Shown: in pieces, positions 12,529 through 61,167 of the stretch
How the letters are laid out: each line of letters starts with the position of its first letter
How positions within the stretch are numbered: position 1 is the stretch's first letter
Assembly (NCBI RefSeq): GCF_027307225.1
Contig: NZ_DAHUXJ010000149.1
Coordinates: 1 to 64,000, forward strand
Length of the DNA stretch: 64,000 nucleotides
DNA from: Bradyrhizobium sp.
GTDB lineage: Bacteria > Pseudomonadota > Alphaproteobacteria > Rhizobiales > Xanthobacteraceae
Direction: 5' to 3'
Translations under genes and position numbers: made by a program
Notes under the pieces: model-generated
The model's input: only the letters and a program-made list of their open reading frames with translations
What the model was told of the DNA's origin: nothing
The model's database searches: none

Positions 12529-12589
12529 CAACCGATCTGCAAGGATTGACGGGGGGGTTGGGGTGGCTCAGGCCGGCGGGCCTAAAGTC

Positions 12590-12650
12590 GTACCTAGTCC
12601 AATGGGAGACCCCCCGGCAGAGCCGGGGGGTCTCCCATTGGACCAGGTAC
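12590..12650. repeat. Near-perfect 29-base-arm palindrome with a 3-base loop
   Basis: The left arm starts GTACCTAGTCCAATGGGAGA and ends CCCCCCGGC; the right arm is its complement with a single mismatch (TAG versus TGG). Only AGA separates them. There is no T-run on either side, so it is not a classical intrinsic terminator, although it would form an extremely stable RNA hairpin between the MAPEG gene and the next gene. It may be an extragenic palindromic repeat. Confidence 0.9.
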
Positions 12651-12744
12651 GCCAAATTGACTTGCCTTTGTATGGCGGGGGGAGAAGATTCGCGCCCGCA
12701 ATCACGTGAGAAAACCCTCAAGCAAAACCTAAAGGGGGAAAGCC

Positions 12745-22318: not shown

Positions 22319-23108
22319 GCGCATCGCATTTGCTCTGATTTTAGGGGCCGCACCGGTGGCCACTCCCGGATTCGCCTTCGATGGCTCTCCAGTGAATCAG
22401 AACTCGACCATTCCAGTGGTTTCGACGCCGTCAGGCGCTGCGGTAACCCTGAAGAAGGGCGCGCCATCCGGCATCGACGGTTCGGCGTCGGCCTATGCTG
22501 CCGAAACGGTCACGCAGTGGAAGCTCGGTCGCATGTACGCCGACGGCAACGGCGTGGCGCAGGACGATCTGCGGGCCTTCGAATATTTTAGCGGAATCGC
22601 CAACACCCATGCCGAAGACAATCCGTCGGCGCCGCAGGCCGCGATTGTCGCCAACGCGTTCGTGGCGCTTGGACGGTATTATCTGAGCGGTATCCCGAAT
22701 TCGAAAATCAAGCCGGACACCGAGCGGGCGCGTGAGATGTTTTCCTACGCCGCGTCCTATTTCGGAAACGCAGACGCGCAATACGATCTCGCCCGGCTCT
22801 ATCTGAAGAGCGCCGGGACCTCCCGCGACGACTTCCGCTACGGCACGCGTTGGCTGTTCCTGGCTGCACAAAAGGGCCAGCATCAGGCCCAGGCGCTGCT
22901 TGGCCAGATGCTGTTCAACGGCGATCAGCTGCCGAAGCAGGCCGCGCGCGGATTGATGTGGCTGATGCTCGCGCGCGATAGCGCGACCCCGGATGAGACC
23001 TGGATCAGGGACAGCTACAACAAGGCGGTTGCCAAGGCATCCGATGACGACCGCACCATGGCGCTGCAAATGGTTGAGCGTTGGGTACGAACCGGCGGCA
23101 GAGACTAG
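22305..23108 (+). CDS. exoR: ExoR-like Sel1/TPR-repeat periplasmic protein
   Basis: A 267-residue protein with a signal peptide ([20 protein letters not shown], likely cleavage after GFA) and several Sel1-type repeats: [43 protein letters not shown] and [11 protein letters not shown]. Length and repeat spacing match ExoR, the periplasmic repressor of the ExoS-ChvI two-component system that controls exopolysaccharide and motility in rhizobia. The start ATG at 22305 lies inside the end of ilvD, suggesting translational coupling. The ORF-track start at 22218 would place 29 extra residues before a clear signal sequence. That it acts on an ExoS-ChvI system here is inference. Confidence 0.72.
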
Positions 23109-23222
23109 TGTGACGAATTTGAAGTTACTGCCCGTTTCGCCGCGGGTTCGTAACAGGAATTTCAAAGTCAGGGCCGCCCTGGAAAACCAATAGTCGCTCG
23201 AGCTCCCTTGATTCCGAAGTTG
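23105..23222. repeat. Degenerate copy of the bulged paired-palindrome element (copy C)
   Basis: Between the convergent ends of exoR and xthA. It reads GACGAATTTGAAGTTACTG, then a matching GTAACAGGAATTTCAAAG arm, then CGAGCTCCCTTGATTCCGAA without its partner arm. Order and spacing match copy B (61001-61167) in the same orientation, but the second hairpin is truncated and the first has mismatches. Confidence 0.7.
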
Positions 23223-27594: not shown

Positions 27595-29169
27595 ATGGCT
27601 GATCGATATCAGAACAGAGCTTATCCGGCCGGTGACGGCTATGATCGCGGCGCGGGCTCGCGTGGACCCGGCAATGCGGAAAGCGATCCGCTGGCCGAGC
27701 TTGCGCGCTTGATCGGCCAGACCGATCCATTCGGCACCAGGCCCATGAGCCGGGCCAACTTGCCGACGCAGCCGCCGGCGCGACCGTCCGAGCCGGGGCC
27801 CGCCGAGGGCGATTATCAAGACGGCGATCCGGACGGTTATCAGGACAGCTACTACGAGGCCTCGGAGCCGGAGGAGGTACCGCCTCCTGCGCCGCCATCC
27901 TGGATGCAGCGAGCCGCTACGAGACAAGAGGCACCGCCGGCTCCGCGAGAGGATGACTATCCAAACGCGGTACATCCGCTGCACCGTTACGCGGCCGCAC
28001 ATCCTCCTGCCGAGCCGGACTATGACCACGCGCAATACGATCATGGGCAATACGATCATGGGCAGTATGATCACGGAAAGTCCTTTGCCGAGCCCAGTCA
28101 TGAGGCGGATCCGTCGCGCTACGATGAAGCGCTCTACGGCAGCTTCGATTCCGGCACGCAGCACGCCCAGCACGATCAGGGCTATGGCGACGATGGTTAC
28201 GGCTACGAAGACGACCAGCAATTCGAGGACCAGCCAGAACCAAAACGGCGCGGCGACATGATCAAGGTCGCAGCTGTGCTGGCCTTGGCTGTGTTCGGCG
28301 TTGGTGGCGCCTTTGCTTATCGCACCTACACCGGCAGGGTCCGCAGTGGCGAGCCGCCGATCATCCGGGCTGACACCGGTCCGACCAAGATCATTCCTGC
28401 GCAGGCCGATGCGACGGCAAAGGTACCGGATCGAATGGCCATCAGCGATGGCACCGAGAAGATCGTCTCGCGCGAGGAAACGCCGATGGATCCCGGCAGC
28501 GCGAGACAGCCAGGACCCCGCGTCGTATTTCCGCCGCTCACTCAGAACGGAAACGCGCCACTGCCGGCGACAATTACACCGGGTGGGCCGGCCCCGGCCG
28601 CCGGTTCTCCGAACGGGACCTTCACGAACAACGAACCACACCAGGTTCGGACCGTCACGGTTCGTCAAGATGCGGCGAACTCCGGAACGCCGCCGGCTGC
28701 CGCGCCTCCTGCGGCAGCCCCGGCCAGGCCTTCATCGCGCACAGCAGCGGCGAGCCCCATCAGACCGTCCGCCGGCAACCCCAATGCCGCTAACGCGAAC
28801 GGCCCGTTGTCGCTGGCGCCACAGGGTGAGGCTTCAGCGGCGCCGGAGCCGCCGGTTCGGATGGCTGCGACCAATCCCACCCAGATGGTGCCCAGCGCTC
28901 CCAGTCCGGCCGCCGCTGGTGGCGGCTACCTCGTGCAGGTCTCGTCGCAATCCAGCGAAGCCGAAGCTCAGGCATCCTACAAAATGCTCCAGAGCAAATA
29001 TCCGTCGGTGCTCCGATCGCATGCGCCAGTGATCAGGCGCGCCGAGCTTAGCGGCGACAAGGTCGTGTATCGGGCCATGGTCGGCCCGTTCGGGTCGTCT
29101 GCGGAGGCATCGCAGTTCTGCGGTAGCTTGAAATCCGCCGGCGGCCAGTGCCTCATCCACCGGAACTAG
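27595..29169 (+). CDS. SPOR-domain membrane protein
   Basis: A 524-residue protein. The first 220 residues are cytoplasmic, acidic and low complexity, with a tandem QYDHG repeat. One membrane helix follows (MIKVAAVLALAVFGVGGAFAY, about 222-243), then a long Pro/Ala-rich periplasmic linker, and a C-terminal SPOR domain from about residue 440 (GGGYLVQVSSQSSEAEAQAS, GPFGSSAEASQFCGSL). SPOR domains bind denuded septal glycan, so this is probably an FtsN/DedD-like division-site protein. The position between argS and nagZ is standard for Rhizobiales. The stop codon lies in a direct repeat next to element copy A. Confidence 0.85.
   Translation: MADRYQNRAYPAGDGYDRGAGSRGPGNAESDPLAELARLIGQTDPFGTRPMSRANLPTQPPARPSEPGPAEGDYQDGDPDGYQDSYYEASEPEEVPPPAPPSWMQRAATRQEAPPAPREDDYPNAVHPLHRYAAAHPPAEPDYDHAQYDHGQYDHGQYDHGKSFAEPSHEADPSRYDEALYGSFDSGTQHAQHDQGYGDDGYGYEDDQQFEDQPEPKRRGDMIKVAAVLALAVFGVGGAFAYRTYTGRVRSGEPPIIRADTGPTKIIPAQADATAKVPDRMAISDGTEKIVSREETPMDPGSARQPGPRVVFPPLTQNGNAPLPATITPGGPAPAAGSPNGTFTNNEPHQVRTVTVRQDAANSGTPPAAAPPAAAPARPSSRTAAASPIRPSAGNPNAANANGPLSLAPQGEASAAPEPPVRMAATNPTQMVPSAPSPAAAGGGYLVQVSSQSSEAEAQASYKMLQSKYPSVLRSHAPVIRRAELSGDKVVYRAMVGPFGSSAEASQFCGSLKSAGGQCLIHRN
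28033..28077 (+). repeat. In-frame 15-base tandem repeat encoding QYDHG, three copies
   Basis: Two identical units CAATACGATCATGGG followed by a third with three synonymous changes, preceded by a partial unit. It encodes QYDHGQYDHGQYDHG in the cytoplasmic part of the SPOR protein. Exact identity of two units suggests recent slippage. Confidence 0.9.
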
Positions 29170-29364
29170 TGGTCCACCGGAACTAGAGCTCCGATTCCGA
29201 AGTTCACAAGCTATTGCGGCCTTTCCGATGCGAACTTCGGAATCAAAGGAGCTCAAGCAACTTATTGATTTGAGTAGCGGCTTTGAATTTGAAGTTCCTA
29301 TAACGAACTCACGGCGAAACTGATAGGAACTTCAAATTCGCCGCACGTGGTCCACACGAACTAG
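29169..29364. repeat. Paired bulged-palindrome element (copy A) with flanking 18-base direct repeats
   Basis: Hairpin A1 at 29186-29254 has arms GAGCTCC-GATTCCGAAGTTC and its complement, with an extra AAA on the right arm. Hairpin A2 at 29277-29344 has arms GCGGC-TTT-GAATTTGAAG on the left and the complement without the triplet on the right. The two bulges face each other's opposite arms, so the hairpins are inverted relative to each other. The unit is bounded by GTGGTCCACCGGAACTAG (29169-29186) and GTGGTCCACACGAACTAG (29347-29364). It fills most of the gap between the SPOR gene and nagZ. Confidence 0.88.
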
Positions 29365-29422
29365 CGGCGACCGCCCCCGACCGGGTGTTGACCCTCGGAG
29401 GGCCGAGGGCTAATCGGCCTCG

Positions 29423-30449: not shown

Positions 30450-31274
30450 ATGACCGCGGAAATTCTCTCGTTCGAAACCGGTCGTCCGGCCGAACTCGCC
30501 GATGGCGAGCCGGCGCTGGTCGTCGACGTTGAAGGCTATGAGGGGCCGCTTGATCTGCTGCTTGCGCTGGCGCGGCAGCAGAAGGTCGATCTCGCCAAGA
30601 TTTCAATTCTGGCCCTGGCCGACCAGTACCTGCAATTCATCGAGGCGGCGCGAAAGATCCGGCTAGAGCTTGCTGCCGATTATCTCGTCATGGCGGCCTG
30701 GCTCGCCTTTCTCAAATCACGGCTTCTGTTGCCGGAGCCGCCGACGGCCGAGGGTCCGAGCGCGGAGCAAATGGCAACCGCGCTTGCCAACCGCCTGCGC
30801 TGCCTGGAAGCCATTCGCGAAGCGTCGAACCGGCTGATGAATCGCCCGCAGCTGCAGCGCGATATCTTCCCGCGCGGCTTTCCCGAAACGATCGCGGAAA
30901 TCCGTCACCCCAGATACACGGCGACCTTGTACGACCTGCTTGCGGCCTATGCCGTGCAACGTCAGCAGACCGTGCTGGCGTCGGTGCATCTTGCCAAGCG
31001 CACGGTGTGGTCGCTCGCCGAGGCGAGAGCGTCCCTGGAGCGGATGGTGGGACTCGCCGAGGATTGGAGCCGCCTCGACGAATATCTTCTCCATTACGTG
31101 GTCGACCCCTCGCAAAAGGCGACCGTGTTTGCATCGAGCTTTGCCGCGGCGCTGGAGCTTGTCAGGGAAGGCGAAGTCGAACTGCATCAGCAGGAGCCGT
31201 TTGCTCCGCTGTTTTTCAGAAAGCGTCCGCCGCTACCGGCGCCCGACACCATGCCCACAGGCGACGCGGGCTGA
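30450..31274 (+). CDS. scpA: Segregation and condensation protein A
   Basis: Kleisin subunit that bridges the SMC ATPase heads in bacterial condensin. The 274-residue protein shows the N-terminal kleisin signature YEGPLDLLLALARQQKVDLAKISILALADQ (split here for length: the EGPLDLLL core is diagnostic) and a C-terminal winged-helix part. GAGGAG precedes the ATG, and the gene begins seven bases after nagZ. Its TGA stop is the first unit of a long TGAG repeat that separates it from scpB. Confidence 0.93.
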   Translation: MTAEILSFETGRPAELADGEPALVVDVEGYEGPLDLLLALARQQKVDLAKISILALADQYLQFIEAARKIRLELAADYLVMAAWLAFLKSRLLLPEPPTAEGPSAEQMATALANRLRCLEAIREASNRLMNRPQLQRDIFPRGFPETIAEIRHPRYTATLYDLLAAYAVQRQQTVLASVHLAKRTVWSLAEARASLERMVGLAEDWSRLDEYLLHYVVDPSQKATVFASSFAAALELVREGEVELHQQEPFAPLFFRKRPPLPAPDTMPTGDAG

Positions 31275-31344
31275 GTGAGTGAGTGAGTGAGTGAGTGAGT
31301 GAGTGAGTGAGTGAGTGAGTGAGTGAGTGAGTGAGTGAGTGAGT
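31272..31344 (+). repeat. TGAG tetranucleotide microsatellite, about 18 copies
   Basis: An uninterrupted run of TGAG units, 73 bases long, starting with the stop codon of scpA and ending 24 bases before the scpB start, just upstream of its AAGGAG. Every frame contains TGA every twelve bases, so it cannot be translated through in plus frames. On the minus strand it reads as a meaningless THSL repeat. Confidence 0.98.
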
Positions 31345-31367
31345 AAGTGGAAGAAGGAGATTGTGCC

Positions 31368-49131: not shown

Positions 49132-49207
49132 CTGGTGGTCCTTTGATTCTAAAATTCGCAAAGAAGCCGGCTGCGAACGGATGCGAATGTTAGAATCGGA
49201 CCACCAG
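49132..49207. repeat. Single bulged palindrome (copy D) between DUF2189 and transglycosylase genes
   Basis: Left arm CTGGTGGTCC-TTT-GATTCTAAAATTCGCA pairs with TGCGAATGTTAGAATC-GGACCACCAG; the TTT on the left arm is unpaired. Architecture is the same as hairpin B2, but the stem bases differ at several paired positions on both arms (GGTGGTCC in place of GGAGCTCC, TCTAA in place of TCCGA), i.e. compensatory change. The loop is about 20 bases. Confidence 0.85.
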
Positions 49208-61000: not shown

Positions 61001-61167
61001 ATAGTGCGGCGAATTTGAAGTTCCTATCGGTATTCACGGCAAGTTCGCAATAGGAACTTCAAATTCAAAGCCGCACTATGATCATTTACTGCTGGAGCTC
61101 CTTTGATTCCGAAGTTCGCATGAGAGGTCGCCGCGACCGCTTGCGAACTTCGAAATCGGAGCTCCAG
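61001..61167. repeat. Paired bulged-palindrome element (copy B), inverted relative to copy A
   Basis: Hairpin B1 at 61001-61079: left arm ATAGTGCGGC-GAATTTGAAG, right arm complementary with an extra AAA before GCCGCACTAT. Hairpin B2 at 61092-61167: left arm CTGGAGCTCC-TTT-GATTCC, right arm complementary without the triplet. The reverse complement of this element aligns along its whole length with copy A at 29186-29344. Confidence 0.9.

Follow-up and report, generated by a model that had tools for sequence, protein, structure and literature searches.

Inverted pairs of bulged hairpins with CTAG feet form an abundant, apparently mobile BIME-like family in Bradyrhizobium

Copies of the element in the 64-kb window

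The window, a 64,000-nucleotide stretch of a Bradyrhizobium contig, contains four copies (A to D) of a palindromic element. The first-pass annotation had described all four, and each exists where it was placed; we slightly corrected the limits and added the CTAG feet, a feature that had been overlooked. The features are as follows.

29183..29349, + strand: copy A, a complete dimer of inverted left and right hairpins around a spacer, with outer feet CTAG at 29183-29186 and CGTG at 29346-29349
29183..29257, + strand: copy A left (L-type) hairpin, CTAGAGCTCC-GATTCCGAAGTTC..GAACTTCGGAATC-AAA-GGAGCTCAAG, with the AAA bulge at 29245-29247
29258..29271, no strand: copy A spacer from L to R hairpin, by covariance-model limits
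29272..29349, - strand: copy A right (R-type) hairpin, GCGGC-TTT-GAATTTGAAGTTCCTAT..ATAGGAACTTCAAATTC-GCCGC, with the TTT bulge at 29282-29284
61001..61167: copy B, full inverted pair, limits including the CTAG feet
61001..61079, + strand: copy B R-type hairpin, with the AAA bulge at 61067-61069
61092..61167, - strand: copy B L-type hairpin, with the TTT bulge at 61102-61104
23105..23182, + strand: copy C, decayed R-type hairpin, covariance-model score 48.6 bits
23196..23221, - strand: copy C remnant, one truncated L-type arm, repeat family D7
49132..49207, - strand: copy D, lone L-type hairpin of a second subfamily, CTGGTGGTCC..GATTCTAA, with the TTT bulge at 49142-49144; R partner missing

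The AAA and TTT positions confirm that the bulges lie on opposite arms within copies A and B, as had been proposed. The R-type hairpin of copy A has GAGTAG as its inner foot instead of CTAG. Run on the window, the covariance model identified exactly 29183-29257, 29272-29349, 61001-61079, 61092-61167, 49132-49207, and 23105-23182. Folding z-scores against dinucleotide-preserving shuffles are -4.9 and -6.4 for A, -10.1 and -7.4 for B, and -6.3 for D, and no shuffle folded as well as any of these hairpins. The first hairpin of copy C has a z-score of -1.7 and the second is truncated.

Copy A is surrounded by three copies of TCCACCGGAACTAG, one of them reading TCCACACGAACTAG (window 29156-29186 and 29347-29365), at and just past the stop codon of the upstream gene. 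They may represent a tandem repeat or the footprint left by an earlier insertion. Elsewhere, the window holds an unrelated near-perfect palindrome with 30-nt arms (12589-12651) and an array of tandem TGAG tetranucleotides where an ORF ends (31272-31349).

Anatomy and copy number

The element is about 165 bp long and joins two unlike bulged hairpins, termed L and R, in inverted orientation 13-15 nt apart; by covariance-model limits this spacing is kept in nearly all pairs. Each hairpin has a 26-bp stem, a loop of about 20 nt, and CTAG at both feet, the two CTAGs being base-paired together. Alignment of copies from the genome fixes the ends at CTAG on both sides. Sequence information drops to background immediately outside these ends, and the flanks are unique. 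Most subfamilies read CTAG-TG...CA-CTAG. Other subfamilies follow the same plan with stems that start TGGTCC/TGGAGT, TGCCCA/TACCGC, or TGCCGC and with bulges of 3-5 nt.

The first-pass annotation had the bulge as invariably three bases. Among parseable hairpins, exactly 3 nt are kept in 71 of 72 left and 62 of 69 right hairpins, so the bulge is conserved in further copies, but across species and subfamilies its length ranges from 2 to 5 nt.

The family extends well beyond the four copies first noticed. A search of the genome, in which 40 of 363 candidates were scored, found about 40 near-full-length copies that are 92-96% identical to copy A, and a single-hairpin covariance model has at least 150 matches in the same genome. 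We identified 340 hairpin units, mostly '+-' pairs and including 81 full-length pairs, in 1.13 Mb of this genome, a sample picked around matches, so that its density is biased upward. Neighboring pairs in tandem overlap by exactly 4 nt in 16 cases, with a single CTAG common to both. The midpoint falls within an ORF of at least 200 aa for only 5 of the 81 full pairs, though 78% of the sequence lies in ORFs of this size. The word CTAG is 4-fold underrepresented, and in 440 kb about half of its occurrences (185 of 363) are hairpin feet of the family.

No autonomous form, in which an L and an R hairpin enclose an ORF, was identified among 53 isolated units in the 1.13 Mb, and no multi-copy long repeats bordered by the hairpins were found. 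The sole candidate for an autonomous element, an ORF at locus L111, does not resemble a transposase.

Conservation of pairing

Across Bradyrhizobium, compensatory change is strong in both stems, and the loops drift. In an alignment from 23 genomes, standard pairs make up 96.4% of pair cells and 21 of the 53 pairs have changed on both sides, a count equaled in none of 500 shuffles. Inside one genome, divergence is 2-4% in the stems and 7-14% in the unpaired loops and spacer. G-U pairs are not clearly in excess over A-C mismatches (21 versus 13), and we therefore see no RNA signature; an Rfam search gave nothing above the gathering score for the element.

Insertion sites and feet

Comparison of orthologous loci identified two sites that are filled in some genomes and empty in others. 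Empty site 1 reads GCGCCCT-CACSAG-GCTGACG, and the filled form, present in 15 genomes including that of the window, reads GCGCCCT-CAC(T/C)AG-[element]-CACCAG-GCTGACG. The site-1 element (G000 C151:58868-59836, where G000 is the window's own genome, and orthologues) lies where the stop and start of two genes, apparently co-directional, overlap, and it alters the C-terminus of the upstream gene. At site 2, the empty form has one CTAG-like word (CTAGG, CCAGG, or CTAAG) and the filled form has CTGG on both sides. Given one CNRG in empty and two in filled sites, insertion adds the pair plus one tetranucleotide. Both empty sites are compatible with either a 4-bp duplication or a carried tetranucleotide, with no duplication. 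We found no paralogous empty sites within the window's own genome.

The outer feet bear on these two options. CTAG occurs on both sides in 56 of the 81 full pairs and on one side only in 22, and the same non-CTAG word occurs on both sides in none of the 81. In young copies, a non-CTAG foot is confined to one of the two sides. Such unmatched feet favor the absence of target duplication.

The two feet of the R hairpin are also coupled. CTAG forms the outer foot of R in 50 of 53 copies with an intact inner R foot, versus 13 of 24 with a broken one (Fisher p = 7e-5); among the higher-scoring, younger copies the coupling weakens to p = 0.03. This pattern matches guide-type choice of target and hints at it, and co-evolution after insertion could partly contribute. 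An A precedes the left CTAG in 37 of 67 cases, compared to a background of 18.5% (p = 2e-11), and on the right side T occurs in 21 of 67; we give the A preference little weight because decayed neighboring hairpins may inflate it.

Site 1 also informs on what happens after insertion. Among its 14 orthologous copies (14 species), 12 of 53 pairs have compensatory changes, which indicates that the inserted hairpins stay paired, unless separate insertions struck this site in several species.

Distribution in the genus

Of 272 genomes searched in the genus, 53 carry the family at E <= 1e-10. Four genomes have high numbers of first-look candidates, which are not confirmed copies: G000 (362), G065 (135), G242 (109), and G223 (96). 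G065 is a closed genome, and its copies, whose stems are only 3.2% divergent, were recently amplified. The exact hairpin pattern was found in GTDB genomes on 8 contigs, 7 of them titled Bradyrhizobium. No copies were found in the plasmids searched or in the viral contigs searched.

Search for a mobilizing enzyme

The first-pass annotation had suggested that a Y1-type transposase (IS200/IS605 or RAYT) mobilizes the element, and that a gene of this kind might carry the same hairpin in its flanks. The window's own genome encodes two RAYTs and one IS200 gene. The RAYTs (L034 and L035) are flanked by GTAG-type palindromes, GTAGGATGGGTTGAGC and GTAGGGCGGGTTAGCC, that are unlike the element in sequence. 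The CTAG hairpin is absent beside the RAYTs at these 2 and at 5 other loci, and from within 1.5 kb of 30 further RAYT loci that partly repeat the first set. The IS200 gene has an ordinary copy of the element about 100 bp away. A RAYT profile matches 209 of 271 genomes but neither G065 nor G223, and Y1_Tnp has no match in closed genome G065. IS630 was considered as a mobilizer and is absent from G065 and G242.

IS481-family elements of about 1045 bp, with 6-bp NCTAGN duplications, were identified at CTAG in G000, G065, and G242, evidence that these genomes harbor enzymes that target CTAG. In G000 they lie at the ends of contigs C1, C54, C130, C18, C19, C100, C59, and C71; other loci are L244, L248, and L251 (G065) and L243 and L247 (G242). 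Their ends (TSTGG..TCARGAGGTTGTCC, from five copies in G065 and G242 plus the contig-end copies in G000) differ from those of the element. The junctions of the element also do not fit a 6-bp NCTAGN duplication: the base before the right CTAG is fixed as A and the left -5 position is A in 55%, and at site 2 the corresponding bases are T (left) and A (right). Just past an IS481 end, at L263, is a short CTAG-footed hairpin, CTAGAGCC-TAT-CTGGTTTTGATT..AATCAAAACCAGGCTCTAG, with a 3-nt bulge. Overall, no mobilizer gene was found among the Y1/RAYT, IS630, and IS481 candidates.

Comparison with known repeats

The closest parallels are the BIME-2/REP pairs and REPINs (RAYT substrates) of E. coli, in which two different bulged palindromes are likewise inverted across a short linker, intergenic, and arranged in tandem arrays, with a conserved tetranucleotide at the foot. 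Like REPs and BIMEs, the element forms high-copy intergenic imperfect palindromes in inverted pairs. Unlike them, it has 26-bp stems and a loop of about 20 nt, no unpaired GTAG or GTGG 5' of the hairpin, no RAYT flanked by its palindrome among the loci examined, and no RAYT in two of the four high-copy genomes (G065 and G223). The E. coli REP foot is an unpaired 5' GTAG, whereas CTAG is paired and present on both sides of each hairpin (PMC8266576, PMC3733652). TnpA-REP needs the unpaired GTAG and, in E. coli, the bulge (PMC8266576).

Within the same genus, the GTAG-3, GTAG-14, CGTC-1, and CGTC-3 REPs (PMC3733652) and Br-REP1 and Br-REP2 (PMC5082802) are also high-copy intergenic palindromes that form dimers. 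The Br-REP1 and Br-REP2 consensus sequences are unrelated to the element (PMC5082802). Alphaproteobacterial CGTC REPs have no known transposase, stems of 8-9 bp, loops of 4-5 nt, and an unpaired tag (PMC3733652). CTAG is absent from the text of both papers (PMC3733652, PMC5082802), and the stem words had no relevant match in the literature searched. The paired CTAG constitutes a third foot class alongside those of the GTAG and CGTC REPs.

The IS481 family resembles the element in its CTAG target (NCTAGN) and is present in three of the four high-copy genomes; it differs in its 6-bp duplication, terminal repeats, length, and encoded transposase. IS608 (IS200/IS605) has terminal bulged hairpins, and its tetranucleotide is chosen by pairing with an internal guide beside the hairpin. 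The IS608 hairpins lie on one strand in the same orientation, whereas those of the element are inverted, and G065 lacks a Y1 gene. Rhizobial RIME is an intergenic mosaic of two palindromes, about 108 bp long, and is likened to the element here by description only.

A model for mobility

Copy number, anatomy, covariation, and precise insertion identify this as a BIME-like, non-autonomous mobile family. Sequence comparison establishes the family, its anatomy and covariation, its precise insertion at CNRG, and its spread. The annotation's observation was right and understated, and its reading as a non-autonomous BIME-like family that moved was also right, given many copies, unique flanks, sharp ends, and filled and empty orthologous sites. 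The moving unit would be the inverted L and R pair plus one CTAG, inserted precisely at a CTAG or CNRG tetranucleotide, with one such word before and two after, and one in common between tandem pairs. The hairpins may be the recognition form, the paired inner CTAG may help to select or verify the tetranucleotide that becomes linked to the outer end, and the chemistry would be carried out by an enzyme supplied in trans that is not among the RAYT/Y1 genes found. For this enzyme, we consider a single-strand, hairpin-reading (HUH-like) reaction somewhat more likely than a double-strand DDE one. After insertion, host selection or template-switch repair could keep the hairpins paired, as at site 1. 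We hold this explanation as a whole, including hairpin recognition, guide foot, and trans enzyme, with middling confidence; counted against it are the missing mobilizer gene, the lack of a detectable Y1 gene in G065 despite its recently amplified copies, and a CTAG that is paired, versus the unpaired GTAG foot of REPs.

Two other kinds of enzyme could be responsible. A possible but rather less probable reading is that a DDE (rve-type) transposase, targeting CTAG and making a 4-bp duplication, moves the element as a MITE, the hairpins being terminal inverted repeats around a short interior. Ends of the form 5'-TG...CA-3' are usual for IS3/IS481-type transposases and match the CTAG-TG...CA-CTAG of most subfamilies. 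The single CNRG of empty sites and two of filled sites, the CTAG/CTAG feet of 56 of 81 copies, and the resident IS481-family elements would also fit. Neither the bulge nor the paired inner CTAG is expected on this reading, which is also at odds with the one-sided non-CTAG feet of young copies, the different ends and duplication of IS481, and the absence of IS630 from G065 and G242. It is improbable that a resident Y1/RAYT transposase acts on the hairpins as REP-like substrates, as the annotation had it: bulged hairpins, inverted pairs, and tandem arrays are indeed like those of E. coli BIMEs, and RAYTs are common in the genus, but a bulged hairpin by itself is insufficient to identify a Y1 substrate. 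The attribution is not supported, given RAYT loci devoid of the hairpin, own RAYTs with GTAG palindromes of other sequence, no unpaired GTAG foot, and genomes (G065, G223) that lack RAYTs or, in G065, any Y1. Conceivably, although we consider it unlikely, a non-Y1 hairpin-reading, single-strand system with the paired CTAG foot as target guide has independently filled several Bradyrhizobium genomes.

Alternatively, mobility could be past and the hairpins now mainly host RNA or DNA elements, with roles at transcript 3' ends, in mRNA stability, or in supercoiling. The almost exclusively intergenic location and the compensatory changes at site 1 would suit such a role. Near-identical copies with unique flanks indicate recent spread and G-U pairs are not clearly above A-C mismatches, and we give this possibility little credence.

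On the preferred, mobile-element explanation, the filled and empty sites narrow the insertion chemistry to one tetranucleotide. An abundant, recently active family in a closed genome without detectable Y1 makes the assumption that BIMEs need a RAYT testable. How palindromes persist once inserted is a further question, prompted by the compensatory changes at site 1.

Solitary hairpins

Some hairpins occur outside pairs. One solitary CTAG-bounded hairpin is a perfect palindrome without a bulge (L103:3127-3199). Single L or R hairpins end exactly at CTAG at L178:4638-4711 and L163:4867-4943, and look as if one half had been lost or had moved alone.
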